From: Acholeplasmataceae bacterium
GTDB lineage: Bacteria > Bacillota_I > Bacilli_A > Acholeplasmatales > Acholeplasmataceae
Assembly: GCA_021736335.1 (NCBI GenBank)
Contig: JAIPGC010000007.1
Location: 1 to 35,771 of the forward strand
Length of the DNA: 35,771 bases
Reading direction: 5' to 3'
Position 1 is the stretch's first letter. The number at the start of each line of letters is the position of its first letter. Position numbers and translations under genes: made by a program. Under the pieces are notes generated by a model that saw only the letters and a program-made list of their open reading frames with translations, made no database searches and was not told where the DNA came from. This document shows positions 1 through 26,677 of the stretch, one piece after another.

Positions 1-2
1 TC

Positions 3-896
3 GCTAGAAAATTAGTTTTATCCGCTTTAACAGTAGTTTTAACGGTAGTGGCTTTAGGGACTACTACATTTGCATGGTTTACATTAACAAACACCGCAGT
101 CGTTCAACCATTTGAAGCACAAATCGTTGCTGACACCGGGATTGAAGTTTCACTAGATACAATTGATTGGTATACTACATTAACTACTGATCTTATTGAA
201 ACTTATATTTTTGACACATATGGTGCATTCAGATTTACTCATGTCACTACTGCAACTGGTTATAGTTCATTTAATACACTTGGAGCTTCTGGTTTAACAA
301 ACACATCAGCAGGCTACTTAGAAATACCAGTTCATTTTAGATCCAATTCAGCAGACGCTATTGACTGGACAGCAGTTACATTAACATCACCACTATCACC
401 TTGGTTATCTGATGTCGCATTTACTTCAACAACTGGTGCAGTTACTGCTGGTGGTAGTATACCTCAAGATGCATCTAATGCAATGAGAGTCAGTGTACAA
501 GGTATTGTTGCAGCAGATCCTGCTCACGTTGTCGTATTTGAAAGAGCAGCTACAAACAACAATAACGTAGTTCTTGGTGGAGATGGTGTTACACCTGTTG
601 ACTACAGCAATGGTGGTGTTGGTAATGCAGGTTCATACAACTATTATTATGCTAAGACTGGCGCATTAGTTCCAGGCACTGACGCAGTGGTTGTTGCTCC
701 AGCTGTCACATTAATAAATGATGCTAATGCACAAAGAGTATTAGACCTCACTGCAGATACAACTTATGGTACAGCATTCTATGGTTCACTTACAATTCGC
801 GTTTGGTTAGAAGGTTGGGATGCAGATTCTTACAACTCACTACTCGCAAGAATGATCTCAGCTTCATTCACATTTATCGGAACTAACGTCGTATAA
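3..896 (+). CDS. SipW/TasA-type exported protein, 5' partial
   Basis: The reading frame is open to the left edge of the window, so the true start lies upstream; a GTG at 48 is internal to the signal sequence and not a believable start. The visible N-terminus is a basic ARK followed by about 20 hydrophobic residues ending in TTTFAWFTLTN, which is the hallmark of SipW-dependent signal peptides (TasA/camelysin type: hydrophobic stretch, then AWF/AWY, then a Thr/Asn-rich exit). The mature part, about 265 residues, is rich in Thr, Ala, Asn and Val, poor in Cys and Lys, and looks like a secreted beta-sandwich. Codon use (GCA, GGT, ACA, CCA) looks like that of a strongly expressed gene. A 14-bp hairpin follows the stop. 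It is followed by a SipW-like peptidase gene, the expected processing enzyme. Function inferred: subunit of an extracellular fibre or coat. No specific family is assigned. Confidence 0.75.
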   Translation, partial: ARKLVLSALTVVLTVVALGTTTFAWFTLTNTAVVQPFEAQIVADTGIEVSLDTIDWYTTLTTDLIETYIFDTYGAFRFTHVTTATGYSSFNTLGASGLTNTSAGYLEIPVHFRSNSADAIDWTAVTLTSPLSPWLSDVAFTSTTGAVTAGGSIPQDASNAMRVSVQGIVAADPAHVVVFERAATNNNNVVLGGDGVTPVDYSNGGVGNAGSYNYYYAKTGALVPGTDAVVVAPAVTLINDANAQRVLDLTADTTYGTAFYGSLTIRVWLEGWDADSYNSLLARMISASFTFIGTNVV

Positions 897-936
897 TAGA
901 GAATAGTTCAGGTATTAAAAGACACAATTCTAGTCA

Positions 937-969
937 GGTAAGTGCATTTTCTTGAAAAATGCACTTACC
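937..969 (+). other. Long perfect hairpin after the exported-protein gene
   Basis: GGTAAGTGCATTTT (937-950) pairs perfectly with AAAATGCACTTACC (956-969) around a CTTGA loop, giving a 14-bp stem. No T-run follows on either strand, so it is not a standard intrinsic terminator. It probably marks the 3' end of the upstream transcript by processing or protects it from 3' exonucleases, while limiting read-through into the next operon. This role is inferred. Confidence 0.6.
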
Positions 970-977
970 GTCCATCT

Positions 978-1008
978 TTGAATTGAATGTTTTGGTGTAT
1001 ACTATAAG
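978..1008 (+). promoter_or_regulatory. Possible promoter of the sipW-AAA operon
   Basis: TTGAAT at 978-983 and TATAAG at 1003-1008 are 19 bp apart; TATACT (998-1003) is an alternative -10 with poor spacing. The position, upstream of a gene whose RBS (AAGGGAG) begins near 1034, is right, but neither spacing is ideal, so the exact boxes are uncertain. Confidence 0.3.
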
Positions 1009-1046
1009 TATAAATTATTTGTATACATTAAATTAAGGGAGTTATT

Positions 1047-1745
1047 ATGGAAAAGTCAAAACAAAAGTTAGCACTAAAGATCTTAAAGATCAGTGTTAAT
1101 ACATTATTCTACATCGTGATTGCATTATTGTTGGTTTTTTCACTGGCGAACATTCAAGTCAAGAAGGAAAATGACATTGCAAATGTTTTTGGAAGAGGAT
1201 TTTTGTCAGTCCAATCAGACTCTATGTCAGGTGACCTAGAGGATAATTTTGAAAAGGACGACATGGTTTTTGTTAAAATGCTCAATGATTCAGATCGTGA
1301 AAATCTTGAAGTTGGTGATATTGTTACATATTTTGATCTAACTATCAGGGCTTTTAATACGCATAGAATTGTTGAAATTTATGAAAACGATGGCGAAACA
1401 TATTTAGTTACCCAAGGTGATAATACACCTGGTCCAGACCAACCGATTCGTGCTACAGAAGCGAAGGCAATTTACTTGTCTAAATGGAGCGGTTTTGGTG
1501 CAACACTCGATTATTTGCAATCACCAACAGGATTTGCATTATTTGTTATATTACCTGTTGTCATTATTTTAGTTTTTGAGGGTATTGTTTTAGTCAGAAA
1601 TATTTTAGCTTTGAATAAAGTTAAAATGGAAGAAAAGTATGCACTTGAAAAAGAGAAGACAATTGTTGATCTTGAAGCCGAGAAAGATAAGATTCGCGCT
1701 CAAATCATGGAAGAACTTAAAAACAATAAGGAATCAGATCTATAA
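1047..1745 (+). CDS. SipW-like type I signal peptidase (paralogue 1)
   Basis: 232 residues. Topology: TM1 about 15-35, an extracytoplasmic catalytic domain, TM2 about 163-187, then a charged cytoplasmic tail. The catalytic motifs are of the ER/archaeal/SipW type: Ser59 in SDSM, His106 in THRI where classical LepB enzymes have Lys, and a GDN box at 124-126 with Asp131 nearby. This Ser-His-Asp arrangement is known for B. subtilis SipW, which processes TasA and TapA. The likely job is cleavage of the SipW-type signals of nearby exported proteins. Residues 190-232 form a Lys/Glu-rich, probably helical tail. It is the first gene of a five-gene run with gaps of 33, 14, 16 and 11 bases, preceded by an AAGGGAG ribosome binding site. 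A second copy of the family sits at 5975-6649. Confidence 0.88.
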   Translation: MEKSKQKLALKILKISVNTLFYIVIALLLVFSLANIQVKKENDIANVFGRGFLSVQSDSMSGDLEDNFEKDDMVFVKMLNDSDRENLEVGDIVTYFDLTIRAFNTHRIVEIYENDGETYLVTQGDNTPGPDQPIRATEAKAIYLSKWSGFGATLDYLQSPTGFALFVILPVVIILVFEGIVLVRNILALNKVKMEEKYALEKEKTIVDLEAEKDKIRAQIMEELKNNKESDL

Positions 1746-1778
1746 TCTCATAATGTAAAAGATTCATAAGGAGAATTT

Positions 1779-3311
1779 ATGGTAGAGTTTGCTCGATACT
1801 ATATTGACTTCATTAGAGAACTCTTTGCGAATATCGGTAAATTTTTCAAGAGCCTATTTGAAGCCTTTGCCGATTTGTTTTTTAATGGAGTTATTAATTA
1901 TTTTAATAATTTTAATCAGGCATCAGAAGAATTCACATTGCTCGATTGGGTAATGGCTTTTATCGTTATTTTAATTAATATAGCATTCATTATTTTTATT
2001 GGGTTAAAGCTTTATCAATGGATTAGAAGATATGTGAAGTTCTCAAAATCAGAGATTGAAAAAGATGAATTATTAGAAGAAATCACTTTTTTAAATCAAA
2101 AGACAATTGAGCTTATGGATGAGAAGAATAAAATCCTTTCACTTAAAATGGGTGGTCCTGGTGGAGAAGTTGATTTAAGACAGTATAGTGCTGAAGAAGA
2201 ATTACAAGAAGAACTTACAGGTCCTTCACGTTTTGTTAAACTGATTCAAGTTGATAGAGAATATGAAAATACAGTAACAGCGATTCACATGCGTGACGAA
2301 GATATGATCAATTTGAATGCATTAGTTAAAAGATTTATTAACTTTTCAGCATCTAAATTGGGATTATTTTATGATAGAAAGATTATATCAGCATTTTTTT
2401 CAGGTATGGCAACATCAAAAACTATGATTTTAGAAGGTATATCTGGTACCGGGAAAACATCTCTTCCTTATGCTATGGGTAAGTTTTTTGGTCATGATTC
2501 TAATATCATCGCAGTTCAACCTTCATGGAGAGATAGAGCTGAAATGGTTGGTTACTTGAATGAATTCACGAAAAAGTTCAATGAAACTGACTTTCTAAAA
2601 GCAATTTACGAAACTACTTATCGTGATGATATTTGTATTGTTGTTCTAGATGAAATGAACTTAGCACGTGTTGAGTACTATTTTGCAGAGTTCTTATCAT
2701 TGCTTGAAATGCCTGATCCCGATGTATGGTGGGTTGATGTTGTTCCTGATACACAGCCTGGGGATCCTAAAAATCTTAGATTAGGTAAGATATTATTACC
2801 ACAAAATGTATGGTTTGTTGGAACAGCCAATAAGGATGACTCCACATTTACAATTACCGATAAGGTGTATGACCGTGCAACTCCAATTGAAATCAATGCG
2901 AAAGCAGCATATATAGATGCACCTCAAACAGAAGGTGTGACCATTAGTTATGATTATCTGCAAGATTTATTTAGACAAGCTTATAAAGAGCACCCAATGA
3001 GTCTTAAAGCATTAGAAAATCTTGAAAAACTAGATGCATTTATCACAAATAACTTTAAAGTTACCTTTGGTAACCGTATTATGAAACAAATTCGTGCCTT
3101 TGTTCCTGTCTTTGTTGCTTGTGGAGGAACTGAGTATGAAGCATTAGACTACATGGTAGCAAGAAAAATCTTTAGAAAGTTTGAAAGCTTGAATTTACCA
3201 TTTTTGCAAAATGAAATTAATGATTTATCTTCGTTACTTGATCGTTTATTTGGTAGAAATGTCTTTGTTGAATGCCAAGCATATCTGACAAGTATCAAAA
3301 AACAATTTTAA
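1779..3311 (+). CDS. Membrane-anchored McrB-like AAA+ ATPase
   Basis: 510 residues. The N-terminus has an amphipathic/aromatic stretch (1-45) and one strong transmembrane helix at about 57-78, followed by a coiled coil (about 90-125). The AAA+ domain starts near 178: Walker A GISGTGKT (220-227), the QPSWRDRAEMVGY segment after it (247-259), Walker B with Asp291-Glu292 in VVLDEMN, sensor 1 Asn351 in GTANKDDST, and a DRA arginine (Arg366). This pattern belongs to the McrB/AAA_5-like ATPase family, in which the ATPase acts on a partner encoded next door. No DNA-binding McrB N-terminal domain is seen; its place is taken by the membrane anchor. The neighbours are signal peptidases, exported proteins and a possible McrC-like partner directly downstream (14 bases). 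I infer a membrane-tethered remodelling motor linked to the export or assembly of the surface proteins rather than restriction. RBS: AAGGAG before the ATG. Confidence 0.85.
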   Translation: MVEFARYYIDFIRELFANIGKFFKSLFEAFADLFFNGVINYFNNFNQASEEFTLLDWVMAFIVILINIAFIIFIGLKLYQWIRRYVKFSKSEIEKDELLEEITFLNQKTIELMDEKNKILSLKMGGPGGEVDLRQYSAEEELQEELTGPSRFVKLIQVDREYENTVTAIHMRDEDMINLNALVKRFINFSASKLGLFYDRKIISAFFSGMATSKTMILEGISGTGKTSLPYAMGKFFGHDSNIIAVQPSWRDRAEMVGYLNEFTKKFNETDFLKAIYETTYRDDICIVVLDEMNLARVEYYFAEFLSLLEMPDPDVWWVDVVPDTQPGDPKNLRLGKILLPQNVWFVGTANKDDSTFTITDKVYDRATPIEINAKAAYIDAPQTEGVTISYDYLQDLFRQAYKEHPMSLKALENLEKLDAFITNNFKVTFGNRIMKQIRAFVPVFVACGGTEYEALDYMVARKIFRKFESLNLPFLQNEINDLSSLLDRLFGRNVFVECQAYLTSIKKQF

Positions 3312-3325
3312 TTAAAGGGTAAAAT

Positions 3326-5197
3326 ATGAAAAAGACAAGTGATCTCGTAAAATTCCATCAAACATTAAATGATGCACTCTATCAAATGGAAATGGAAGAG
3401 GAATTTCCTAATCACTTTTACCAAGCCCTTCTTTCTGGGGAAAACACAATTTATCAAAAAAATATTTCTGAAATTAAAACTTTTCATGAAGATTGGATTG
3501 GTACGATTGAATCCTTTTTCCCAAGTTTAGATAAAATTACAAAGAATTCAAAATCTGGATTGAGATATGATCGTGAGATTGTTGCAATCGAAAAAGCTAA
3601 AAAGACAAATAGTGAATCCGTTAGACACTTAGCATCACACACACACCTCATCAAAGAGATGCGTGATGGCGAAGTCGTTCCTAAACAAATTTTAATCACT
3701 CAAGCAGAAATTGATCTAGCTATTTATGAAAATCGGTTCATCATGACATTGATCAATCGTCTTTTTAAATTTGTTCTAGATCGATATGAGATCGTTAAAA
3801 AGAATGTTCAGTCATTTGAGCGTAAGCATTTTAACCTAAAATCAGAATTTAAAATCAGAGAATCCATCGTTGAAATGGACATTGATTTGAATGTAAAAGA
3901 CGAAATTGAATTTGATAGTGATGGCAGAAGTAATTATAAATTGTTAAATAGAATCAATGCATTATTAAAGATGGTCAACGGATTAAGAGAAAGTAATTTT
4001 ATGGAAGAGCTGAAAAATGCGAAGCCTATTGTCCCTCCAATCATGAAGACCTCAATCATTTTGAAAAATGTTGACTATAACAATTGTTATAATCTTTGGT
4101 TATATTTAGATAAGTACAATACATTTAATTTTGATTTGGATATTAAAGAAAAAAACTTGCCATTTGATAAGTATTACTTGAGAAATGTTTATCAAACAGC
4201 TTTAATGACATTTTCTACAGTCTATGCGAATCAAGAAGCTCTAGCAGACCATTATCAATATGTTGATATCGAAGAATACAAGAGAAGAGCACCGAAATTT
4301 GTTAAAAAGAACTTAAAAGACATTATCAATCAACCGGATCCTGTTGTTCTTGAGGATACTCAAATTAGTCAGTATTATCTTGATCAAAGTGTTGAAATGT
4401 TTAAAAAGAATCTTGAAAAACATAGTGAGGAATCATCATCTTATGATGTTGCATTAAGAAAAGCACTACGTGACACAATTGAGATTACGAATAAATTATA
4501 TGAAAACTATTTTGAGTTTAAACCAGAAAATATTAATGATGATATGTTTTTTGCTCGGATGCTTAAACCCGATACAGAAGCTGATTTGCTCAAAGCAAAG
4601 GATAAAGCAAGAGTTGCACGTATCATTCGTGAAACCAAGGAAATTGATTATAATAATGCCATTCGTTTAGAAAAGCGAATGATGAAAGAAATTCAAGATC
4701 TTGATAAGAAACTTGCTAAAGAACTTAAGAGTAAAGCCTATGATTTAGCAAAGAAGTTGACAATTGAAGAGAAAATTAGAATAGAAAGAGAAAATTTGTC
4801 TATCAATCAAGGTATTCTTGAAGATTACTTAAAGTATACAGGTGAGCAAAGACAAATCTTAAATGAAGAACAAAAAGCATTTGCTGAAAAGCTAAAACAA
4901 AATCAATTGCTTGTGAAAGAAGAAGAAAGAAAGATCATAGAGACAGAAAAGAAAAAAGCAAAATCTATGTATAATCAGGAAATGAAAAAACTTCAGGCAG
5001 AGCAAAGATTAGAAAAGAAAAAGCTTGCAGAACAAATAAGAGCACAAAGAGCAGCACAAAAGAAGAAATTAGCTGATGAGAAACTAAAATTGAAAGAAGC
5101 ATCAGCAAAAAGAATTGAAAAAGCTAAAGAGAAAATACAAACTAATTATGAAAACAAGATGAGTACAGCAAAAAAGAAGCTAGAAACTAAGAAATAG
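3326..5197 (+). CDS. Coiled-coil protein, possible McrC/DUF2357-like partner of the AAA+ ATPase
   Basis: 623 residues, without signal peptide or transmembrane helix. The N-terminal part contains LAIYENRFIMTLINRL (131-146), which resembles the conserved YENRF(V/I) helix of DUF2357/McrC-like proteins that pair with McrB-type ATPases. I could not find a PD-(D/E)XK nuclease core. Instead, residues from about 431 to 623 form a very long Lys/Glu/Ala/Gln-rich coiled coil ending in a basic tail. Genetic coupling to the AAA+ gene is tight (14-base gap, AAAGGG RBS). The most economical reading is a cytoplasmic scaffold driven or loaded by the ATPase and perhaps contacting the charged tails of the two signal peptidases. 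The family assignment is tentative and needs a profile search; the coiled coil is plain from the sequence. Confidence 0.7.
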   Translation: MKKTSDLVKFHQTLNDALYQMEMEEEFPNHFYQALLSGENTIYQKNISEIKTFHEDWIGTIESFFPSLDKITKNSKSGLRYDREIVAIEKAKKTNSESVRHLASHTHLIKEMRDGEVVPKQILITQAEIDLAIYENRFIMTLINRLFKFVLDRYEIVKKNVQSFERKHFNLKSEFKIRESIVEMDIDLNVKDEIEFDSDGRSNYKLLNRINALLKMVNGLRESNFMEELKNAKPIVPPIMKTSIILKNVDYNNCYNLWLYLDKYNTFNFDLDIKEKNLPFDKYYLRNVYQTALMTFSTVYANQEALADHYQYVDIEEYKRRAPKFVKKNLKDIINQPDPVVLEDTQISQYYLDQSVEMFKKNLEKHSEESSSYDVALRKALRDTIEITNKLYENYFEFKPENINDDMFFARMLKPDTEADLLKAKDKARVARIIRETKEIDYNNAIRLEKRMMKEIQDLDKKLAKELKSKAYDLAKKLTIEEKIRIERENLSINQGILEDYLKYTGEQRQILNEEQKAFAEKLKQNQLLVKEEERKIIETEKKKAKSMYNQEMKKLQAEQRLEKKKLAEQIRAQRAAQKKKLADEKLKLKEASAKRIEKAKEKIQTNYENKMSTAKKKLETKK

Positions 5198-5213
5198 TAA
5201 AGGTGGTGATATC

Positions 5214-5963
5214 ATGTCAATTCGTCCAAAATCAACTACGAACCGTATGGTCATGGTATCCATGGTTTACTTTATGCTTGCTTTAACCATATTTACAGTA
5301 GTCATATTTGCTTGGTATACCTTAACAGATATCAATAGAGCAAGTCTTGTTTCACAAGTTTCCGGTGTTGAAGCTGAATATGCATTTTATGTTTATCGTG
5401 ATAGCGAAAAGAATGGGAGTAATGAACTCACATTAATTGATAATGTTTGTATTCTTAGCGAAGATCTTTGTTATGAACATATACTTAATCCAACATCAAA
5501 TACACTTATCCCAAGTTATGTGGCACCAGGAGAAAGATTTTCATTTGCTATTAAAATTACAAGTGTTGGTGAAACCGAAGGTTACTTAGCTTTAGATTTT
5601 AAAGATATTGTATCTGCTGGATATGATATCATTCAAAACAAGATTCAAATTGCATTTCTATATGAGCTTGATAAAGTTTCTTATATTAATGAAGGTGTAG
5701 AATCCATAGATTATAAAGACTCTGGAATTATCATATATTATAATCAACATTTTGATTATGATAATAACCACATATATAGTCTCATATCCAATGTACCTTT
5801 TGGATTAGAAGGAGATCTCAATTCGACTGTTGTTATTTACTTTGATCTTTACTTTGATCCAACGATTTATGGTCAAACAAGTGAAGGTGTTCCTTATACC
5901 AATAGCAACATCTTTATGAATCAAATATTCGCGATTAATCATATTGTCATGACAATTTATTAA
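5214..5963 (+). CDS. SipW-type signal-containing exported protein
   Basis: 249 residues. The basic N-terminus (RPKSTTNR) is followed by a hydrophobic segment about 13-33 that ends in VVIFAWYTLTDINRA, the same FAW(F/Y)TLT junction as in the protein at the left edge of the window, so it is a probable SipW-peptidase substrate. The mature region is beta-rich and contains two Cys in DNVCILSEDLCYEH that could form a disulfide. There is no second membrane segment and no wall anchor. It lies 16 bases after the coiled-coil gene and 11 bases before the second signal peptidase gene, with an AAAGGTGGTG ribosome binding site. Likely a minor subunit, nucleator or cap of an extracellular structure by analogy with tapA-sipW-tasA; the analogy is inference. 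Confidence 0.72.
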   Translation: MSIRPKSTTNRMVMVSMVYFMLALTIFTVVIFAWYTLTDINRASLVSQVSGVEAEYAFYVYRDSEKNGSNELTLIDNVCILSEDLCYEHILNPTSNTLIPSYVAPGERFSFAIKITSVGETEGYLALDFKDIVSAGYDIIQNKIQIAFLYELDKVSYINEGVESIDYKDSGIIIYYNQHFDYDNNHIYSLISNVPFGLEGDLNSTVVIYFDLYFDPTIYGQTSEGVPYTNSNIFMNQIFAINHIVMTIY

Positions 5964-5974
5964 GAGGTGTTACA

Positions 5975-6649
5975 TTGAAAAAAATATTTACAGGCTTTTT
6001 GGTATCACTAACCATCTTAATATTTGGTCTATCCATATCGATTATGTTTTTAGGTGCTACAGCATACAAAAACAATGAGTTATTCTTTATTTTCGACCAC
6101 TCATTTTCAATCGTTCCCACCGATTCTATGATTGGTGATCAACCAGATTCATTAGACCCCGGTGATATTGCGATTTTAAGACGCGGCGCATTCGAAGATA
6201 TTGAGGTTGGAGATGTCGTTGTTTATCAAGATAATGTGAATATCAGTGGCACTATCAAGAGTATTTTGATTATTCATAGAGTCATAGAAATTAGAAGTGA
6301 TGGCAGTCTCGTTACCAAAGGTGATAATCCACTAAACACAGTTGATCCACACCCAGTAACTAGTTCGACATATCAAGGGACTCTAATTTCTAAAATTACC
6401 TTCTTAAAGCCATTAGTTGACTTGATGATTAATAGTCGAAGTCTAATCTTTCTAGCTTTAACTGCTGTACTCGTGATACTTTTGATTTGGGAATTAGCTC
6501 ACATGTATTCAAATATTTATAAGCCAATCCAAAAAGAAAAAATAGATAAATATGAAGCGGAAGTAGCTCAAATTAAGAAGCAAGAAGAAGAAAGAATATA
6601 CAAAGAAATACTAGAAGAAGAAAAAGCGAAAATAAAGCAATCAAAATAG
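5975..6649 (+). CDS. SipW-like type I signal peptidase (paralogue 2)
   Basis: 224 residues, starting with TTG at 5975; AAGAGGTG sits 5 bases upstream and no better ATG is available. TM1 is about 4-28 and TM2 about 155-177. Catalytic Ser51 lies in TDSM, His101 in IHRV, and the GDN box is at 116-118 with Asp124 following, so all three elements of the Ser-His-Asp SipW/ER-type peptidase are kept. As in the copy at 1047, the protein ends in a highly charged helical tail (about 182-224) that should face the cytoplasm. It is the last gene of the five-gene operon. Two active copies in one locus suggest division of labour between substrate sets, for instance the protein before it and the two small exported proteins after it. 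This is inference. Confidence 0.87.
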   Translation: MKKIFTGFLVSLTILIFGLSISIMFLGATAYKNNELFFIFDHSFSIVPTDSMIGDQPDSLDPGDIAILRRGAFEDIEVGDVVVYQDNVNISGTIKSILIIHRVIEIRSDGSLVTKGDNPLNTVDPHPVTSSTYQGTLISKITFLKPLVDLMINSRSLIFLALTAVLVILLIWELAHMYSNIYKPIQKEKIDKYEAEVAQIKKQEEERIYKEILEEEKAKIKQSK

Positions 6650-6658
6650 TGCTTTTAA

Positions 6659-6687
6659 TTGACAAAAGAGCAACAATATATTATAAT
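6659..6687 (+). promoter_or_regulatory. Strong vegetative promoter of the riboswitch operon
   Basis: Perfect consensus TTGACA (6659-6664), a 17-bp spacer and TATAAT (6682-6687). Transcription should start near 6694. The -35 box starts 10 bases after the stop of the preceding gene, so the downstream unit is transcribed separately from the sipW-AAA operon, although read-through is not excluded because no clear terminator lies between them. Confidence 0.88.
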
Positions 6688-6694
6688 TGAATTA

Positions 6695-6715
6695 GGATAT
6701 TATATAATAATATCC
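6695..6715 (+). other. 5' leader hairpin at the start of the riboswitch transcript
   Basis: GGATATTA (6695-6702) pairs perfectly with TAATATCC (6708-6715) around TATAA. It would sit at the extreme 5' end of the mRNA, where it could protect the transcript, or as DNA could be an operator at +1. CCC at 6714-6716 could instead pair with GGG at 6725-6727, the 5' edge of the aptamer. Confidence 0.5.
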
Positions 6716-6718
6716 CTT

Positions 6719-6791
6719 AAAAAAGGGCAAAGCTAGGGCAACCTAGTGACGCAAAGCTATAGGGCCTAAATTAGGTAGCCAGTTGCATCTC
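6719..6791 (+). ncRNA. Cyclic-di-GMP class I riboswitch aptamer (GEMM-I)
   Basis: The conserved GEMM-I landmarks appear in order: AGGGCAAAGC (6724-6733), a hairpin CTAGG-GCAA-CCTAG with a GNRA tetraloop (6733-6746), GTGACGCAAAGC (6746-6757), the tetraloop-receptor side GCTATAGGGCCTAA (6756-6769), a second stem GCTA/TAGC (6756-6759 with 6776-6779), and TAGCCAGTTGC (6776-6786) closing the base stem through TTGC with GCAA. The family binds c-di-GMP, with a GEMM-Ib subset preferring cGAMP; the discriminating base cannot be fixed without an alignment. It lies 25 bases after the promoter and controls the genes from 6840 to 15691. Confidence 0.93.
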
Positions 6792-6814
6792 GAAAGAGGT
6801 ACGACTGGCTTTTT
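6777..6814 (+). terminator. Intrinsic terminator forming the riboswitch expression platform
   Basis: AGCCAGT (6777-6783) pairs with ACTGGCT (6804-6810); the inner stem ATCTC/GAGGT closes a GAAA loop (6792-6795), and TTTTT (6810-6814) follows. The 5' arm reuses AGCCAGTTGC, the conserved 3' strand of the aptamer. Ligand-bound aptamer and terminator therefore look mutually exclusive, predicting that ligand turns the operon ON. The logic is inferred from base pairing. Confidence 0.82.
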
Positions 6815-6839
6815 GAATTTTTAAGAAGGAGGCAAGCGC

Positions 6840-7505
6840 ATGAGAAAGTTAAAAATTAGATTAACATCACTATTCATCGTTATTATATTAATGATGTCCA
6901 TCCCTACAGTTGTTTATGCATGGATGACTTACGTTGAAGAAAAATCGCTTGTCACCATTAATGCAGGCGAAATTGATATCACAACTTATGCTAATGAACA
7001 AATAACCATAGATCAAATTGATTTGATCGATTTGACATATGTTGATTATCAAAATGATTTTATTTTGGATCAATCTGGCACCTTAGACATTATTGCATCC
7101 AATCTTAGAATAGATATCTTAGCATCTGAACAATCTGTATCCATCAAACATCATATCCAGTTGATTGACAATTCTAGTCAAGTGGGTCTTTTATATTTTA
7201 TCATCTATGAAGGAATGAATGTCGGTGAAGCTTATACACTTCAATCTGACTATCATGCATTGATGAGTACAATCATTTTAGGATTAACAGTCAAGGAAGA
7301 TCAACTTGCTGCAATTGAAGCTTATAATCTGGATGTGCTTGATCAAATGGCAGCTGAAACGTTAAATGCTGGAGACATGCTCACTTTCCAAATTGTATTT
7401 TGGGGTGATCATGATGAAGCTCCAGATCCAATGATTTTCTTGGATCAAATCTATAGCCTCTCCATGATTATTGATGTTATCAATTCAAAGGGTGAGGTGG
7501 CATAA
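6840..7505 (+). CDS. SipW-type signal-containing exported protein, first gene of the riboswitch operon
   Basis: 221 residues. The N-terminus MRKLKIRL is followed by a hydrophobic segment (9-26) ending in VVYAWMTYVEEKSLVTINAG, matching SipW-dependent signals in which the AW motif precedes a region ending in an AGxID-like strand (here AGEIDITTY). The rest is acidic, beta-rich and Cys-free. There is an excellent AAGGAGG ribosome binding site (6825-6831). It is directly downstream of the c-di-GMP riboswitch and one base separates its stop from the next ATG. By family analogy it would be a small TasA/TapA-like surface subunit; no closer identity can be given. Confidence 0.75.
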   Translation: MRKLKIRLTSLFIVIILMMSIPTVVYAWMTYVEEKSLVTINAGEIDITTYANEQITIDQIDLIDLTYVDYQNDFILDQSGTLDIIASNLRIDILASEQSVSIKHHIQLIDNSSQVGLLYFIIYEGMNVGEAYTLQSDYHALMSTIILGLTVKEDQLAAIEAYNLDVLDQMAAETLNAGDMLTFQIVFWGDHDEAPDPMIFLDQIYSLSMIIDVINSKGEVA

Positions 7506-7506
7506 T

Positions 7507-8190
7507 ATGTTTTCTGCACTTAAAAGAAGAATTTATCTATCCTTAACACTGGTTGTCTTGCTCTTTGGTGTATCACTGGTTGCAGTTTTTGCTTATTTCC
7601 AAACTCAAGAGCAACGAGGTATTATCATTCAAACTGGTGATTTTGAAGTTGAAGTATTTGCTTCATTTAGTGGGGTTGTAGTAGATTATAATAGCCCATA
7701 CTATAACAGAGAGACTGGAACACTCATCGTTAATGCCTATGATTCACTAAGTAGTAATTATGTAGGTAACCTTGAAATATCTGTTGAAATAACAGCTGTT
7801 GTTCCAGCAAGAATGAGAATGAAGCTTCAAGAACAGTGGACACTCACAAGAACTTATCTGGATCAAGATCCACTTTATCCAATTGCAGATGTTATAGAAG
7901 TCGTCTACAACTCAAATCATGGAGCTGGTTACTACCCATTCTCATTGTTAAAGATTCCACCAACATTTACACCAATTTATGATGTTGATGGATATGCTTA
8001 TATGAGTAGCATCATACCAAAGGGTGTAACTACAACATTTGATTTTATTCAATCAGGAGATCCTTACATTGTTAAGAATAATGAAGTATTTACAGAAACT
8101 TGCTTTCTATATATAGATTTAATGATTGATGTCGTACAAGCAAACAGATTTTCAGAAATCTGGGGTATTGATCCAAACTTTTATAATTAA
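7507..8190 (+). CDS. SipW-type signal-containing exported protein, second gene of the riboswitch operon
   Basis: 227 residues from ATG 7507, which follows the preceding stop by one base and is served by GGTGAGGTGG; a start 12 codons earlier would overlap the previous gene and add unlikely charged residues. The N-terminus MFSALKRRIYLSL leads into a hydrophobic segment (about 9-30) ending in VAVFAYFQTQEQRG, then IIIQTGDFEVEVFAS, a diverged version of the SipW-type junction with FAYF in place of FAWF. The mature part has many Tyr and Val and a YYPFSLLKIPP segment. No transmembrane helix follows. It is probably secreted and assembled together with its neighbours. Confidence 0.7.
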   Translation: MFSALKRRIYLSLTLVVLLFGVSLVAVFAYFQTQEQRGIIIQTGDFEVEVFASFSGVVVDYNSPYYNRETGTLIVNAYDSLSSNYVGNLEISVEITAVVPARMRMKLQEQWTLTRTYLDQDPLYPIADVIEVVYNSNHGAGYYPFSLLKIPPTFTPIYDVDGYAYMSSIIPKGVTTTFDFIQSGDPYIVKNNEVFTETCFLYIDLMIDVVQANRFSEIWGIDPNFYN

Positions 8191-8206
8191 GAAATGAGGT
8201 GAAGAC

Positions 8207-11200
8207 ATGAAAAGAATATGGATGAAAAAAATCGCATTGTTCTTTTTTGTCTTTGCTTCTATTTTTTTACTATCTGATTGGATAGGTTTTACTAACTCTC
8301 AGGGTTTCGATTATCAAGTTTCAAGTTCATGGCAAGGTCAGGACTTAGGTTTTACACCTCAGTTGGATGTTTCTTATGATAGTGAATATCGTCCATTTAG
8401 TGAAATCATCGAATCAGTTCTTTCAGTTGACAATACTAAAATATATGTCATCGAAGACGCATATGATTTATATCATTTATCTCAACTATCCAAAGGTGCA
8501 GATAAAAGTACATATCTGAGTTTGGATTACGTTCTTGGTGGAAACATAGACTACTATGATATCGTTCAACAAAATATTACTTATCGTTTTAGTCCAATTG
8601 GATTTGTCGAACCATTCTCTGGTACATTTGATGGACAGGGTTATGAAATAACAAATTTATTCTTCCATTCGATTTTATTTGAGGAAGATTACGATCTAAA
8701 CTATGCTGGATTAAGATATATATCCATGTTTTCAAAAGTAAGTAATACAGGAGTAGTTAAAAACCTAGGGTTAATTAATCCAATTATCATCCAACCAATC
8801 GAATGGGGAATCATGGATAATGTTTCATCATTAGTTGGAGCAAACTATGGACTTGTAGAAAATACTTATATGATTGATACACGTGGAAATGCGGCAGGAT
8901 TCAGTGTAGAAGGGCAATTTAGATTGTCAGGATTAGTATCAGTCAATCTTGGTACAATCTTAAATAGCTTTGTTGCATCTGCACACATCAGATCTAATGC
9001 TGTTGTCAATAATCTTTCTACAAGTGCTGTTGTCTACTCAAATACAGGAACACTTACGAATGTTTATTATGATGAGACTGTTTATGCTGATAGCAATGCT
9101 TTTACAGCTCCTGCTGTTGGTCTAGAAACTTTCGAATTTCAAGATAGTGCGAATTTTTCAAGTGATTGGTATTTTAATGATTCATATGAGTCACTAGCAG
9201 ACTTACCTAGTGAAATCTCACAAGTTACACTTGAAAACACATATCCAATATTACAGGGATTAACAGTGAACAATGGTATTTTAGAAATAGAAAATGCTGT
9301 TGATTTTGTCTATATGAATCAGTTGCTTCTTGTTTCAGGTTATTTTAGATCTAGTCATTATGAAATTATTGCTGATATTGACATGAACCGTGTTTCAAGA
9401 GAAGCTTATCAAGCTGCAAGTGTTGGATTTAATGGTACTTTATCATCATCATTAAGCACTCCATCTACACGCTTATATACAAGAGATACTAATCAAGGTG
9501 GAGATATTTTGTATCACACCATTCTTAATTTGAAAATAGAGTTTGCTTCTCAGGTCGGTAATTTTTCTAGTTATGCTTTATTCACATCATTTTTTGGTAC
9601 AATCGAAAATATCAATTTTGTGAATTATCAAATTACAACCACTGACCTAGAGGATCAAGTTCTAAAGACGAAAGTTCTAGTAGGTTCTATTGCAGGTCTT
9701 ATGAGTAATGGTCACATTGAAAATGTGCATGTTCACGGTGATATTAATGTAACAGAAACATCAACAGCCATGACAAAACTTTATGTTGGTGGTATTGTTG
9801 GTGAAGGCAGTGGAGCGCTTAATAAAGTCTCTACAAATGGCAATCTAACTCAAGGACTTCAATATCAAGCAACAAAAAATAACTACAGTTCAACTGGTGG
9901 TATCATTGGTTTATCAAATGGTATTTCTATAGATTTAGCTATTAACAATAATGTCATTATTGGTCAAGGATATCATGCAACAAATAGTTTAACTTACTAT
10001 ATTGGTGGCATCATTGGATATGGTAGAGTTAGAACAATGTCGAAGATAGTCAATCTTTCAAATGTTTATTCTAGTGATAGTGCTGGATATATTGGTACGA
10101 TTTATGCTGGTGGTATCATAGGCATGCAAACCAATCAAATGGGTTCAGTTTCACAGGTTTTCAATGATGGTGATATAGATGTTATTGAAAATCAAGTATT
10201 CAACATGACACTAGCTGGATACGGTTATGTCAATGGATTACTCAAAGATCTTGATTCTGAGTTTTCATTTTATAGTATCACTAATGCTGGAAGATTGAGA
10301 CTTGTTCAACCCAGTGGAACAACTTACTCTGAAACAGATTTAGGACTCATAACCGCAGATGTTTCTGGTGTCATCATTGCTGAAACAATTGATGCAGAAT
10401 TTTATGGGTTATTTAATGAAAGCAATTTTTCAATTGACCTCGCATTAATCAATCAATATGCAGGTGTACTCAATCTAAGAAATTCCAGTGAGTCAACAGT
10501 CATTCAGTCTTATAACACAGGAGATATCACTTTATCAAGTTTAAATGTATTGACACACTCAACGGTTAAGGTTTCTGGTAATGTCTTAGGACAAAATATG
10601 AGCCTAGAACAATTAAGAAATGAAGGAAATATTTCTATAGAATTTGATCATTTGACTACAGTTTCTTCTGGAAACTTTTATGTCTACGGTCTTTTTGAAG
10701 AAGTATCTCAAGATATGACTGCTGCCAATGGTTATAATGGTGGTAATATCTCAATCATTCAAGACTTAGCACCATCTGTTAACTACAATATATTTGCAAG
10801 TGGACTTGCTTATAGAAACTCAAACACAAATTATTATGCAGAACATCAAATAGATTCTACAAGCATCGATATTACTGATATTATTGGTTCAATGGATAAT
10901 TTTATCAATGATGGAGACATTCACATATTAGGATCATTTAATGGCACTACAAGAGCATCTGGTGCATTAATCATTAATGAATCTTCAATCACATCAGTTA
11001 CGAATCTAGGTGATATCATCAATCAAAATGATATATTGCTTGTCAATGGATTTGTTGAAGCTGCAGGTATCGTTGATTTGATGATTGGTCAATATGCTCG
11101 CATCAAAGACTCTGCTAATTATGGTACGATTACTGCCGTATCTTCTAATGCCAATGGGTATCTTCAAGCAGCAGGTATTGCAGTTAGAAATGACCGATTA

Positions 11201-14200
11201 GAAAATGGTAATTTGGTATCAACAGGGACAAATCACAAATATCAAAAGATATTATTTAGCATCAACTATGGTGATATCTATGCCTATAGCCAAGTTGATG
11301 AATCATTATATACAATTTCAAATGAAACACATTCAAAAGCATCTGGTATTTTTGGTCAAGGTTTATTGAGTGTCGTTGATGTTATCAATTATGGCAATGT
11401 CTACTCCAAATATTTAGCGAGTGGTATTTTTGGTTTTATCTCCTTAAATACGTTTGGGTCAATTTCTGCAAATCAAGTTTATATTGCAAATGCCATTAAT
11501 TATGGAAAAATTAGAGCTATTTCGTCATACAATGGTTCATTTACCATTGATATGAATGTTTTCCCATCAGTCATGCCTTATAATGCTTTTGGCACATTCA
11601 TTGGTAAATTCCATACCGGAGTATCCACATGGGAATTCCTTTCTAATTCTACAACAGCAGTCTATCCAATTGACTTAATCAATTTTGGATATTATGCTAA
11701 TTTTGATAGTCTAGGCAATTTATTAGGTAATTCACCAACCATTACACTGGATCCACATCTAACTGAAAATGCTGAAGGTGCTGAATTGCTATTATTCATT
11801 CTTAACCAAATGTCAACCACTAATCCTGATGACACATCGGTCGCACCATTTAGATTATTCCAGCTTGGGGATTTTCCTCATATCGCTGATTATGGTAAAG
11901 ATATCACTTCTTATACACTAGATGATACAGCTACTGGTATATTTAATGAATTATTTATATTCAGAAAACCCCCAGTAAGCTTTTTTGGAACTGATCAATA
12001 TTTAAGAAATTATTTCACTTATTTACCAAGAGACAAGGCTAGTGATCCATTACTTGCTAAATTAGAAGCAGATACAAGTGATTATTTCTTTGGCATTTAT
12101 GTCTTAGCAAGTAGTAGTGGTGTAGGAAATGGTATCTATATTCCTGATCATATGGATTTAGATGCTTTAAATCCTCAAATTCTTAATGGTGAGCCAGATC
12201 TAACATGGTTAGGTGTAGATACAGATCCAGATAGTGTGATCTATAAGCTCACTGTTGGCATGCGTCAAATTAAAAGAACATACGCAACAACTATTTATGA
12301 CCTTGAGGTTTTACAAGTTGATGCTTTTGGTGATCCAATTGAAGATGGACTGGTTCTAAAGAAACCTGTTATTGATGAGGAAAGAGGACTAATAACATAT
12401 TACTTACCAAGTAATGCTACTATTTTATCTGGAACCACATCTCAACAAGTTACAGCATATAGTTATGTTGAAGCAGCAGAAGGTATTGGTACAAAGGTAC
12501 CTGATACATTTGAAAATAATGAATGGTCTTATAAATGGGTAGGTGACTTTAAAAAGGTTGGCGAAGATTATGTTCCTATAGGACCATATAATACAACTGG
12601 TATATTTAATGTCACCTGGAGAGATTATACGGAATTCATTTCTAGTAAAAATAGAAGTGACTCTGTATCAAGTGCAGTTTATGATCGATACTTACAAGAA
12701 ACAGGCGCGAGTCTTACTTATGTGCATGTTCATTTACCACATATCAAAGAATATACGACACTTAATAATTATTGGTGGAGACAAACTGGTTATGTTGTGA
12801 GTTCTTCACAAAGTGCAGCAGCTGGTTATGGTGCTTATAAGATTATTGTACCTACATATCCGCCTAGTTATCCTGTTGTTTATGAATATGTCGGACCTAG
12901 TACTGAACTGGTTACTTATGTTTTAACCAATGTTGAAGGTGGCGGAACAATGACCATCTATGATGATCCAGGTGTTTATTTTCAGGCTCATCTTGATGAT
13001 ACAACCTACACGATTGCATCTGGTGCAACTTTCTATGATGATGGTTCTCCAATGCTTGAATCAGCAACAATTCCATTATCTTATGGTATTTATGATGCTA
13101 TTTATGATGGCACAACTTTTGAATTAATTGACAGTGTTGAAAGTCATTATGGTAGTGTGAGAGTGTTTTCTTCAAATTACGATGAACTTAATCCTTCTAC
13201 TTACAAGGATTATCAAATCAGAATTATTCGTACAGCAGATCAGAGTTTGACTGCTTTGGATTTACTCTATGTTAATGGTGTAAGTGCATTGCCTACTATT
13301 GTCGATTTTAGAAACGTAACTTCAACTGAAATGATTCATTACAAATCAGATGGTGTCAATGGTATCATGACATTTACCTATGAAACATTAAATATTGCCA
13401 ATGAATACAATGTTTTACCGATTTTATCCTTATTTGATAATAATACGAGCGTAAAGATGCACACATCCTTGTACAGGTTAAGTCAAGGTATTGTTACAAC
13501 ATCAGGAGCATTTAACAACCAATTTGGTACTTGGAGTGATGGTACAGTTACTGTAGAATTTGAAGTGACGAATCTTCTTCCAAGTGGATCTTACCGGATG
13601 GAACTTGAATTGGTCACAGGCGAGACTGCAATCATTTATTTTGACAAAATTGAAAGTGCTGATGGTTTCTTGATCAATATTGAATATGATGGAGATATTT
13701 TAGAACCAACAGCTAATCAAATCAGTTCAACAATTCCATTTGGTATCTATTATATGCCAAGTGATGAGACAACTGAAATTGTCAACTTTACCAATTTATC
13801 AACGTTAAGTAACATATTTTATGAAGATTTAACAGGTGCATCACTACCTGATTATTTAACCGATATTGAAGTATCACCATTCTCGACTTTGATATCTATG
13901 GATTTAGATATTACAATGATTGATAGTTATCGTCATCAATATGATATTACTTACTATTTAGAAGCAGAAGATGGAACGCCTTTTACGTATACACATATCT
14001 TATCAGAGGCGATTGTTTCTGCAACACCACAGCACATTTACCAAAATGGTGGTGAGGTCGATTTACCATTTGCATATTTGACTGTTTTATATTCTGAATC
14101 ACCGACAGTTCGTGTTGAATTTGATTTTGAAGATGTCTATTTTCCTTCAAATGATGCAATGGTTATGAGTTCTTCATTTACTCCAGAAAATGGTGGTGCG

Positions 14201-15691
14201 ATGGCTGTAGAAGATGAAGATTATTATATCACGATATTGTCTTCACTAGGCTATGAAGTTGACTTTAATAAGGATACTCCAATTGGTTATTATGATATTG
14301 ATTCTTCATATAGTTCAACAACATTTATATGGGGACAAAATTTAACTTGGGCTTTCACATTTGATTCGATTACCGTCAGAAAAGTCAAGAATGATGATAG
14401 TCATTTGAATAATGTTTATTTCGTATCTGATACCGTATTTTCAGGGTTTGATACCATCGTTGATATTGCAGAAATTACATCCTTAACCTACATCGGTTAT
14501 TTGCAATATCCTGAAACTAGATTGATGTCAGTCCTTCCGACTACAGGTATTTATTATGGTGACTATTTTGAATACACCACTTACTGGATTATCGGTCAGG
14601 TTCAAAAGACTAATTTAAGTGCATATTTACCAACATTTGTTTTACCTGATGGATCAATCATTAGACGAGTGACTGATTTGGTTAATGTTGGCTATGAATT
14701 TCAATCTGAGCAATTATCAGCAGATTTCACACCACTTGGTGAATCATTTAACTTTGTTCAATACCGTGTGTATGCACAAGACTACGATGAGTATCCTACA
14801 CATTATACAGATTACTTCATTGCTATACAGGACGTCACTAATAATATCAAGCTCAATTTGACAGTTGTTAATGATACAGATCTTGAGCTCGATAAAGTAT
14901 TTGTTAAGATCAATGTATGCCAAATGGGTGATGATTATACTGAAGAGTGTGCTTTTCAAGATATTATGATTTCTATGTCAGTTTTTGCATATTATCAAGC
15001 TGATACGGATACATATACAAATAGTCAATTTCAAACAACAATGTATGGAACCTATATGGTCTATGTTGATTTACCTGTTGGATATTCATTTTCAGTATCC
15101 GTTCAACAAGTCACAATTGATGGTAGTGCATTCTTCTTTGAAGATTCAATATTACCAAGAAAATATTATGTTACAGTTACAATCATCGAAGAACCAGCAG
15201 TTGTTGATTGGGCACATCAAGAAAATTACAATTATACACCTCAGATCAATCCACTTAATTTAAGTAAAACTTATGTTGCAGGTGAAAAATTCACTTATGG
15301 TGGCGTGACATGGATGGTTCAAGAAGGTTATACATATTTATATCAAGTTGCTACACCTCCAGGAACTCAAGGTGTCTCTCTTGGCTTGCGTGATGTAAGT
15401 GATATCTATAGCACTGTTTCTACTTATATGATTGGTGATACGGTTTTAATGGGAGCAACTTACTATGAAGCAAGAGCCAATGATTTATTTGATGTTGAAC
15501 CAAATCTTGCTAATGTCCTTTTAGGTCAATGGTTTGAGATTTCCGATTTCTGGTTGAATTATAATGTTTATGAAACAGGAGATATTGTTGAATATAACTC
15601 TATCTTATACATAGCGAACTTCCAAAATCAAAATTTAATTCCTCTTGATCATTCGGGTGTTGGTGAAGCATGGAGTGTTTATACCCCATGA
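8207..15691 (+). CDS. Giant exported beta-helix/adhesin-like protein with C-terminal carbohydrate-binding-like modules
   Basis: 2494 residues. A signal sequence or anchor is at about 8-23 after MKRIWMKK. From about 75 to 1130 the protein has GLUG-like and beta-helix repeats: FSGTFDGQGYEITNLF, VGGIVG, GGIIG, and a recurring NxGxI turn (NGGNISI, NDGDIHI, NYGTITA, NYGDIYA, NYGNVYS, NYGKIRA). Residues about 1190-2340 are Tyr/Thr/Asp-rich beta modules without a recognised family. The C-terminus has three related modules (about 2349-2396, 2397-2445, 2446-2494) with GDTVLMGATYYEA and GDIVEYNSILYIA motifs and a closing Trp, like ChtBD3/CBM5-12 modules. There is no LPXTG and no C-terminal membrane helix. 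The RBS is GAGGTG and a strong terminator follows. Likely a c-di-GMP-controlled adhesin or matrix protein; binding specificity is unknown. Confidence 0.82.
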   Translation: MKRIWMKKIALFFFVFASIFLLSDWIGFTNSQGFDYQVSSSWQGQDLGFTPQLDVSYDSEYRPFSEIIESVLSVDNTKIYVIEDAYDLYHLSQLSKGADKSTYLSLDYVLGGNIDYYDIVQQNITYRFSPIGFVEPFSGTFDGQGYEITNLFFHSILFEEDYDLNYAGLRYISMFSKVSNTGVVKNLGLINPIIIQPIEWGIMDNVSSLVGANYGLVENTYMIDTRGNAAGFSVEGQFRLSGLVSVNLGTILNSFVASAHIRSNAVVNNLSTSAVVYSNTGTLTNVYYDETVYADSNAFTAPAVGLETFEFQDSANFSSDWYFNDSYESLADLPSEISQVTLENTYPILQGLTVNNGILEIENAVDFVYMNQLLLVSGYFRSSHYEIIADIDMNRVSREAYQAASVGFNGTLSSSLSTPSTRLYTRDTNQGGDILYHTILNLKIEFASQVGNFSSYALFTSFFGTIENINFVNYQITTTDLEDQVLKTKVLVGSIAGLMSNGHIENVHVHGDINVTETSTAMTKLYVGGIVGEGSGALNKVSTNGNLTQGLQYQATKNNYSSTGGIIGLSNGISIDLAINNNVIIGQGYHATNSLTYYIGGIIGYGRVRTMSKIVNLSNVYSSDSAGYIGTIYAGGIIGMQTNQMGSVSQVFNDGDIDVIENQVFNMTLAGYGYVNGLLKDLDSEFSFYSITNAGRLRLVQPSGTTYSETDLGLITADVSGVIIAETIDAEFYGLFNESNFSIDLALINQYAGVLNLRNSSESTVIQSYNTGDITLSSLNVLTHSTVKVSGNVLGQNMSLEQLRNEGNISIEFDHLTTVSSGNFYVYGLFEEVSQDMTAANGYNGGNISIIQDLAPSVNYNIFASGLAYRNSNTNYYAEHQIDSTSIDITDIIGSMDNFINDGDIHILGSFNGTTRASGALIINESSITSVTNLGDIINQNDILLVNGFVEAAGIVDLMIGQYARIKDSANYGTITAVSSNANGYLQAAGIAVRNDRLENGNLVSTGTNHKYQKILFSINYGDIYAYSQVDESLYTISNETHSKASGIFGQGLLSVVDVINYGNVYSKYLASGIFGFISLNTFGSISANQVYIANAINYGKIRAISSYNGSFTIDMNVFPSVMPYNAFGTFIGKFHTGVSTWEFLSNSTTAVYPIDLINFGYYANFDSLGNLLGNSPTITLDPHLTENAEGAELLLFILNQMSTTNPDDTSVAPFRLFQLGDFPHIADYGKDITSYTLDDTATGIFNELFIFRKPPVSFFGTDQYLRNYFTYLPRDKASDPLLAKLEADTSDYFFGIYVLASSSGVGNGIYIPDHMDLDALNPQILNGEPDLTWLGVDTDPDSVIYKLTVGMRQIKRTYATTIYDLEVLQVDAFGDPIEDGLVLKKPVIDEERGLITYYLPSNATILSGTTSQQVTAYSYVEAAEGIGTKVPDTFENNEWSYKWVGDFKKVGEDYVPIGPYNTTGIFNVTWRDYTEFISSKNRSDSVSSAVYDRYLQETGASLTYVHVHLPHIKEYTTLNNYWWRQTGYVVSSSQSAAAGYGAYKIIVPTYPPSYPVVYEYVGPSTELVTYVLTNVEGGGTMTIYDDPGVYFQAHLDDTTYTIASGATFYDDGSPMLESATIPLSYGIYDAIYDGTTFELIDSVESHYGSVRVFSSNYDELNPSTYKDYQIRIIRTADQSLTALDLLYVNGVSALPTIVDFRNVTSTEMIHYKSDGVNGIMTFTYETLNIANEYNVLPILSLFDNNTSVKMHTSLYRLSQGIVTTSGAFNNQFGTWSDGTVTVEFEVTNLLPSGSYRMELELVTGETAIIYFDKIESADGFLINIEYDGDILEPTANQISSTIPFGIYYMPSDETTEIVNFTNLSTLSNIFYEDLTGASLPDYLTDIEVSPFSTLISMDLDITMIDSYRHQYDITYYLEAEDGTPFTYTHILSEAIVSATPQHIYQNGGEVDLPFAYLTVLYSESPTVRVEFDFEDVYFPSNDAMVMSSSFTPENGGAMAVEDEDYYITILSSLGYEVDFNKDTPIGYYDIDSSYSSTTFIWGQNLTWAFTFDSITVRKVKNDDSHLNNVYFVSDTVFSGFDTIVDIAEITSLTYIGYLQYPETRLMSVLPTTGIYYGDYFEYTTYWIIGQVQKTNLSAYLPTFVLPDGSIIRRVTDLVNVGYEFQSEQLSADFTPLGESFNFVQYRVYAQDYDEYPTHYTDYFIAIQDVTNNIKLNLTVVNDTDLELDKVFVKINVCQMGDDYTEECAFQDIMISMSVFAYYQADTDTYTNSQFQTTMYGTYMVYVDLPVGYSFSVSVQQVTIDGSAFFFEDSILPRKYYVTVTIIEEPAVVDWAHQENYNYTPQINPLNLSKTYVAGEKFTYGGVTWMVQEGYTYLYQVATPPGTQGVSLGLRDVSDIYSTVSTYMIGDTVLMGATYYEARANDLFDVEPNLANVLLGQWFEISDFWLNYNVYETGDIVEYNSILYIANFQNQNLIPLDHSGVGEAWSVYTP
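15251..15688 (+). repeat. Three tandem CBM5/12-like modules encoded at the end of the giant gene
   Basis: Three about 45-50-residue units share the plan Y-x-x-G-(D/E)-x-(V/F)-x-Y/M-x-G/S-x-x-(Y/W), then a variable loop and, in the last two, a Trp. The first unit (GEKFTYGGVTWMVQEG) is the most diverged. The similarity is visible in protein, not at the DNA level. Confidence 0.6.
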
Positions 15692-24213: not shown

Positions 24214-24240
24214 AAAAAAGGGCGTTGCCCTTTTTATTTT
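24212..24240. terminator. Bidirectional intrinsic terminator
   Basis: GGGC (24220-24223) and GCCC (24227-24230) around GTT, with A8 before and TTTTTATTTT after. It serves potD on the plus strand and the GH16 gene on the minus strand, whose stop codon lies inside the T tract. Confidence 0.88.
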
Positions 24241-24959: not shown

Positions 24960-25072
24960 AATATAGCCTCTTTCAGTTATCAATTGATGTCTCAACAAAT
25001 ACAATATTATCATAAAGCTGAGAATATTCATAGTATTATAGATAAATCGTTTCAAACTAAAATCACATTTCA

Positions 25073-25101
25073 TTGACAATCCTTTATGTGCTACATATAA
25101 T
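25073..25101 (+). promoter_or_regulatory. Promoter of the GH4 gene
   Basis: TTGACA (25073-25078), a 17-bp spacer and TATAAT (25096-25101). Transcription should begin near 25108, which rules out the ATG at 25108 as a normal start and supports ATG 25135. Confidence 0.87.
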
Positions 25102-25134
25102 AAGGATATGCAAACGAGACTGGAGATGATTACA

Positions 25135-26514: not shown

Positions 26515-26522
26515 CATAAATA

Positions 26523-26556
26523 AACGCTCATCACTCCAAGAATGAGTGTTTTTTTA
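26523..26556 (+). terminator. Intrinsic terminator after the GH4 gene
   Basis: ACGCTCAT (26524-26531) pairs with ATGAGTGT (26542-26549) with one G-T wobble; a run of T (26549-26556) follows. Confidence 0.85.
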
Positions 26557-26624
26557 TTATTTGAAGTAACAATTGATACAAAATTATTAAGAATTATCAC
26601 TTTATGTATCTATTATTTTAATAA

Positions 26625-26639
26625 TGAAAGCGTATGTCA
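26625..26639 (+). promoter_or_regulatory. Upstream LacI/CcpA-like half operator
   Basis: TGAAAGCGTATGTCA resembles the site at 26649-26662 read on the other strand (GAAA-C/G-CGT-n-GTCA) with one extra base. It lies just above the -35 box of the uxaC promoter and may be a second binding site for the same repressor. Confidence 0.35.
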
Positions 26640-26647
26640 AAAAAGTA

Positions 26648-26677
26648 TTGACAACGGTTTCGCATGTATGGTAAAAT
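26648..26677 (+). promoter_or_regulatory. uxaC promoter with embedded LacI-family/cre-like operator
   Basis: TTGACA (26648-26653), an 18-bp spacer and TAAAAT (26672-26677). Read on the minus strand, 26662-26649 is CGAAACCGTTGTCA, which matches the CcpA cre consensus TGWAANCGNTNWCA at 13 of 14 positions. The operator covers the -35 box and the first part of the spacer, so binding should repress. Whether CcpA or a pathway-specific LacI regulator binds is open. Confidence 0.65.

Follow-up and report, generated by a model that had tools for sequence, protein, structure and literature searches.

An McrB-like NTPase and its McrC-like partner in a SipW-type signal peptidase operon of an Acholeplasmataceae bacterium

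In the McrBC systems, the McrC domain contacts and stimulates the nucleoside triphosphatase (NTPase). One branch of the McrB-like NTPases is defined by a shortened sensor, NxD, and includes a group for which Bell et al. (2024; eLife 13:RP94800, PMC11090510) introduced the name CoCoPALM in a single paragraph of a census, deferring its analysis. In that paragraph, CoCoPALM comprises McrB-like GTPases of the NxD type that carry a fused transmembrane and coiled-coil segment and are associated with signal peptidases. Here, we analyzed a locus of this kind in an Acholeplasmataceae bacterium. The DNA examined (the window) is 35,771 nucleotides long and is one entire contig of a 1.75-Mb genome that is 85% complete.

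A literature search on the name CoCoPALM returned only the article of Bell et al. and its preprint as relevant, and the literature joining SipW with McrB, or AAA ATPase with Acholeplasma, did not describe the system. The first-pass annotation, made from the window sequence, had regarded the combination of genes as undescribed, but the name CoCoPALM was already in print. In the reading that fits best, to which we give a probability of roughly 0.55, an McrBC-like NTPase pair has moved from nucleic acid restriction to the cell surface, where it would carry out an NTP-driven assembly, linked to cyclic di-GMP (c-di-GMP), of fibers processed by SipW-like peptidases.

Gene order and parts of the module

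The operon encodes, in order, a secreted substrate, a first signal peptidase (SipA), the AAA protein, the McrC-like protein, a substrate, a second signal peptidase (SipB), two further substrates, and a giant protein. An alignment of the AAA protein was used to scan 84,980 species genomes, in which at least 583 relatives were confirmed, and the best 80 were kept for neighborhood counts. Since the relatives were selected by the AAA protein alone, their neighboring genes served as an independent test. A peptidase was encoded directly upstream of the AAA gene in 58 of 68 cases, a DUF2357 partner directly downstream in 63 of 73, a second peptidase within 4 kb after the partner in 43 of 47, and a SipW-type substrate within 3 kb upstream in 43 of 49. 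The order peptidase, AAA, DUF2357 protein, peptidase is conserved across Bacilli and Clostridia. A gene neighborhood survey had been set beforehand as a test by the first-pass annotation, and the arrangement does recur in relatives of two classes, with SipW-type substrates as part of the module.

The relatives belonged to Acholeplasmatales and related Bacilli, Izemoplasmatales, and Clostridia, and included the cultured Acholeplasma granularum and Ruminococcus flavefaciens. The nearest named relatives among the matches listed were Acholeplasmataceae metagenome genomes, with an AAA protein 86% identical. Of 295 genomes sampled from the rest of the phylum, 46 gave a match at an E value of ≤1e-80. 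The AAA tree placed both the module clade of the Clostridia (support, 0.974) and that of mostly Bacilli (0.975) apart from plasmid AAA proteins, and the node uniting the two clades was weak (0.413). Every one of the 20 genomes in the genus carried the AAA gene, and its flanking genes were conserved in another species and, in part, in another genus, which speaks for a core trait and against a mobile island. Phage records contained just two partial AAA matches.

The AAA protein has a Walker A motif (GISGTGKT) and a Walker B motif (VVLDEMN); in a diverse alignment, Walker A, the core of Walker B, and the sensor GTANKDD were invariant or nearly so. The NxD residues (N351-K-D353) were invariant in the same alignment and were also present in the Clostridial members inspected. 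A hydrophobic helix at about residues 58 to 76 is kept in relatives. Residues 1 to 150 consist of this transmembrane helix and a helical linker; a Pfam scan of them gave no domain above the cutoff, and the DNA-binding specificity domain of McrB was not found. A helix-like segment at residues 85 to 125, a candidate for the FtsB-like coil of CoCoPALM, showed no clear 3.5-residue periodicity. The Pfam match of the AAA domain was weak (AAA_5, 0.008), and the family profile retrieved only McrB entries from the PDB (Escherichia coli McrB 6hz4, 1.6e-6). Thus, the earlier call of an McrB-like ATPase with a transmembrane anchor agrees with motifs, hydrophobicity, and profile matches.

The partner is a recognizable McrC homolog, as judged by its domain match and predicted fold. 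When its N-terminal 430 residues were searched, Pfam gave DUF2357, which is the N-terminal domain of McrC, above the cutoff (9.9e-8), and a six-frame search gave the same domain at 2.9e-8. Pfam returned no match for the full-length protein, and the McrC family PF10117 was not found in the genome. An AlphaFold2 model was built from 64 sequences (mean predicted local distance difference test [pLDDT], 80). In VIA-align, McrC structures took the top four places (Z, 8.3 to 8.8; 137 to 141 residues; 3.7 to 4.0 Å), the superposition covering mainly model residues 51 to 267, and the next globular row had a Z of 4.9. Because a VIA-align Z near 8 can be common, as the tool itself warns, the DUF2357 match carries the McrC identity and the fold agrees with it. 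Foldseek alone separated neither the partner model nor the substrate model described below from other folds, and the partner profile retrieved only long-helix proteins from the PDB sequences.

Beyond residue 277, the partner model is helical, and it terminates in a single helix (residues 417 to 620). No nuclease was seen by Pfam or in the model, and the PD-(D/E)XK domain of McrC was not found, as the first-pass annotation had noticed. The same annotation had described a coiled coil of about 190 residues; a long helix is indeed predicted, but heptad periodicity was tested and not found, and the protein as a whole is McrC-like by its DUF2357 domain. Since the hydrophobic periodicity peaked at 3.70 rather than 3.5 (shuffle P of 0.001 over 3.3 to 4.0), "long helix" is a safer label than "heptad coiled coil," and the helix is more probably straight or hendecad-like than coiled in classical heptads.

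Both peptidases matched TIGR02228, a model for signal peptidases of the archaeal/endoplasmic reticulum (ER) type, and both retained the Ser-Met, His-Arg, and Gly-Asp motifs, in agreement with the two SipW-like peptidases that the first-pass annotation had placed around the pair. SipA also matched the SipW model NF046067 (3e-18), under the cutoff of that model. Both module peptidases have long, charged, predicted helical tails on the cytoplasmic side. By a simple hydropathy rule, the tail of SipA was at least 25 residues long in 86 of 86 cases (median, 53.5) and that of SipB had a median of 45.5, with 48 residues for each in the window. Three SipW-like proteins encoded without an AAA gene on another contig (C15) of the same genome had tails of 8, 10, and 17 residues. 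In eight Ruminococcus-type loci, the second peptidase was fused to the McrC-like protein, with the catalytic motifs kept in all eight. The tails and the fusion therefore place the McrC-like protein beside the peptidase, on the cytoplasmic side. The cluster on C15 (L165, 8611 to 12169) stands alone and encodes the three SipW-like proteins (one without SxSM) together with three short proteins that carry SipW-type signals; it represents an ordinary locus of the SipW type.

Substrates were assigned by their N-terminal motif and their own profile, and the presence of a SipW-type substrate in the operon, proposed earlier, was borne out. For the first substrate, the model (m1e7ce8051bdc; pLDDT, 87) is a beta sandwich whose best VIA-align match was the TasA fiber 8aur (Z, 5.6; 136 residues; 3.7 Å), tied with FimA-type pilins; archaeal bundling pili and another TasA entry were also among the structural matches. 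The model is compatible with a donor-strand fiber subunit, which is not proof.

The nine genes of the operon are close-set on one strand according to the open reading frame (ORF) list and begin at base 3 (Table 1). The five ORFs between 1047 and 6649 were all confirmed at the positions given in the first-pass annotation, with 33, 14, 16, and 11 nucleotides between them, but the operon extends beyond this region and occupies positions 1 to 15691. The giant protein is a candidate tip or surface adhesin. Metabolic and transport genes adjoin the operon downstream, and the region from 24234 to 34222 is carbohydrate related (GH16, GH4, glucuronate isomerase, a permease, and a Big_3 surface protein).

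Table 1. Genes of the operon, with positions in the window
Feature	Position	Strand	Remarks
SipW-type secreted substrate	3..896	+	N terminus truncated at contig end; predicted beta sandwich resembling TasA/donor-strand pilins
SipA, SipW/ER-type signal peptidase	1047..1745	+	TIGR02228, 9e-20; Ser/His/Asp motifs intact; 48-residue charged cytoplasmic tail
McrB-like AAA+ NTPase, membrane-anchored	1779..3311	+	NxD sensor motif GTANKDD; profile match to McrB
McrC-like partner, 623 aa	3326..5197	+	DUF2357, residues 60-161; C-terminal predicted single helix of ~204 residues replaces nuclease
Sub249, secreted substrate	5214..5963	+	SipW-type signal; conserved in sister module
SipB, second SipW/ER-type signal peptidase	5975..6649	+	TIGR02228, 3.6e-11; catalytic motifs intact; 48-residue cytoplasmic tail
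Sub221, secreted substrate	6840..7505	+	SipW-type signal
Sub239, secreted substrate	7471..8190	+	SipW-type signal
Giant secreted protein, 2494 aa	8207..15691	+	Last operon gene; subthreshold CBM5/12 match near C terminus

c-di-GMP-linked neighbors and module variants

In relatives, two membrane GGDEF-EAL proteins are encoded upstream of the module, and GGDEF/EAL genes lay within 8 kb upstream in 28 of 40 readable loci, while genomes of the group carry just a handful of EAL genes each. In the present genome, the initial portion of one GGDEF-EAL protein was found at the end of contig C40. The farther of the two proteins retains the DD of the EAL metal site, whereas in the nearer one the second metal-site Asp was replaced in every sequence checked. 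In a variant (type 2) consisting of a giant protein, a degenerate GGDEF-EAL protein, the AAA protein, and a DUF2357 partner, the EAL motif is lost altogether. By these residues, the nearer and type 2 EAL proteins would be receptor-like rather than enzyme-like. At one locus of R. flavefaciens (L148, 7517 to 8287), the operon starts with a stand-alone EAL protein with changed catalytic motifs, a putative c-di-GMP receptor.

A sister module (C40) and its counterparts keep the AAA protein and substrates but have neither the McrC-like gene nor the second peptidase; in several of them, the first peptidase has lost the catalytic serine. For example, the first peptidase at L032 (1063 to 1779) has no Ser-Met motif, similar losses occur at L053, L079, and L083, and a 119-residue remnant is found at L061. 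In type 3 modules, the partner lies between two AAA genes, with a degenerate AAA upstream and large proteins downstream, two of which were examined and have a transglutaminase domain and MBG-like domains.

DUF2357 proteins flanked by two AAA genes were noted at L044, L047, L050, and L071; at the one locus of these that was examined, transglutaminase and MBG-domain proteins come next. At L044 and L050, the AAA halves hardly differ between the two copies, whereas the membrane N termini do, as if by gene conversion. A 900-residue membrane AAA protein and a 522-residue DUF2357-like partner with a zinc ribbon-like end stand alone at L052 (6173 to 10436), and many relatives have roughly one such pair per genome. 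At L067 (7275 to 8888), a related AAA gene is located among prepilin-like protein genes (GFTLVELLVVIAILAIL).

Proposed function and alternatives

For a role of the module in surface fibers, our confidence is moderate, and it is lower for the detailed mechanism, both being judged from sequences and models. In the proposed mechanism, the AAA ring would be tethered beneath the membrane and stimulated by the McrC-like stalk. The ring may grip or move the cytoplasmic peptidase tails, and this action would gate or drive the processing and polymerization of TasA-like fiber subunits, with the giant protein as fiber tip or adhesin and the degenerate EAL protein as the sensor of c-di-GMP. The fully specified version, in which a c-di-GMP-gated former restriction pair couples NTP hydrolysis in the cytoplasm through signal peptidases to donor-strand fiber assembly at the outer face as a motor-driven TasA-type route, is tentative. 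The first-pass annotation had suggested an AAA+-powered machine for export, assembly, or positioning of extracellular fibers; such a machine is the best-fitting view, with export, assembly, or positioning as its putative activity.

Several observations weigh against a fiber assembly machine. The substrate resembles TasA only weakly (Z below 8; Foldseek E value, 0.016 or worse), and the c-di-GMP link rests on relatives, because the corresponding genes sit on a different contig here. Since the sister modules lack the McrC-like gene, and the first peptidase of some has lost its catalytic serine, neither is indispensable to every fiber operon, and type 2 modules have the AAA-DUF2357 pair without any peptidase.

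Among the alternatives, membrane quality control survives best, although we regard it as improbable. An anchored AAA protein beside long-tailed peptidases, together with the peptidase-McrC fusion, would suit an unfoldase that extracts spent signal peptides, stuck prepilins, or peptidases from the membrane and builds no fiber. However, no associated cytoplasmic protease was seen in the operon, and we know of no McrB-type ring with a protein unfoldase role.

Control of adhesin release by a LapD-like switch is doubtful. Here, release or retention of the giant adhesin would be governed by the AAA protein together with the degenerate GGDEF-EAL protein, and the peptidases would act as releasing proteases. 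The adjacent GGDEF/EAL genes of relatives, the missing second Asp of the nearer EAL protein, and the composition of type 2 modules all point this way, but 12 of the 40 readable loci have no GGDEF/EAL gene within 8 kb upstream, and no LapG-like protease turned up, although no search was aimed at one.

It is likewise rather unlikely that the pair senses infection at the envelope, with secreted proteins or peptidases as the effectors of an antiphage or restriction system. The family is an McrBC branch (PMC11090510), the AAA protein of the window matches the PADLOC defense candidate PDC-M26A (8.4e-42), and AAA-DUF2357 cassettes occur on plasmids. However, no nuclease was found by Pfam or in the model, the genes constantly found with the pair encode peptidases and secreted proteins rather than nucleases, and the downstream neighbors are metabolic and transport genes. 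A core surface function is favored over defense by three observations: the AAA gene is present throughout the genus, its flanks are conserved, and it is constantly paired with genes for secretion. Finally, apart from the oddness of the combination, nothing favors an unrelated McrBC remnant sharing the operon by chance or transcriptional convenience, which is highly improbable because the order is kept across Bacilli and Clostridia in relatives picked by the AAA protein alone, and the gene fusion is repeated.

If fiber assembly is correct, an NTPase pair known from DNA restriction has been reused for building or controlling surface filaments in Acholeplasmatales and Clostridia, including Ruminococcus. 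To our knowledge, TasA-like fibers have had no dedicated motor so far, and they would gain one in these groups.

Comparison with known systems

The McrBC systems of E. coli and Thermococcus (6hz4, 6ut6, and 6ut5) share the AAA protein and the DUF2357 partner, whose model superposes on the N-terminal part of McrC. Unlike them, the window has a membrane anchor, NxD rather than NxxD, no methylcytosine-binding domain, and no visible PD-(D/E)XK domain. The label of McrBC type IV restriction was rejected on the nuclease and the specificity domain, neither of which was found. CoCoNuT was also rejected, as Pfam and other profile scans found no HEPN or other nuclease family among the nine operon proteins.

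In the TapA-SipW-TasA operon of Bacillus subtilis, a SipW-like peptidase is likewise encoded with SipW-type secreted beta-sandwich proteins, but there is no AAA or McrC-like protein; the window has long-tailed peptidases, several substrates, and a giant protein. PDC-M26A and the plasmid cassettes share the AAA family and the DUF2357 partner. The plasmid cassettes have four genes, with no signal peptidase annotated, and in a Deinococcus cassette the DUF2357 protein has a subthreshold zinc-ribbon match. Since the plasmid-cassette AAA protein matches PDC-M26A too, this label marks the NTPase family and not the function here.

CoCoPALM is the closest system. The window has the NxD NTPase, the transmembrane N terminus, the DUF2357 partner with a predicted long helix, and the signal peptidases, along with a candidate segment for the FtsB-like coil. 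Most of the defining features examined were found and none was contradicted, so that, clade placement aside, the operon is classed by sequence and models as a CoCoPALM-type member. The published CoCoPALM paragraph (PMC11090510) contains no mechanism, TasA-like substrates, link to GGDEF/EAL genes, fusion of McrC with a peptidase, peptidase tails, or McrC-less modules. Added here are the gene order across two classes, the fusion, the tails, the GGDEF/EAL neighbors, the TasA-like model, and the McrC-less sister modules. In particular, with the fusion and the tails, a gene association that had a name but no explanation becomes a concrete and testable physical model.

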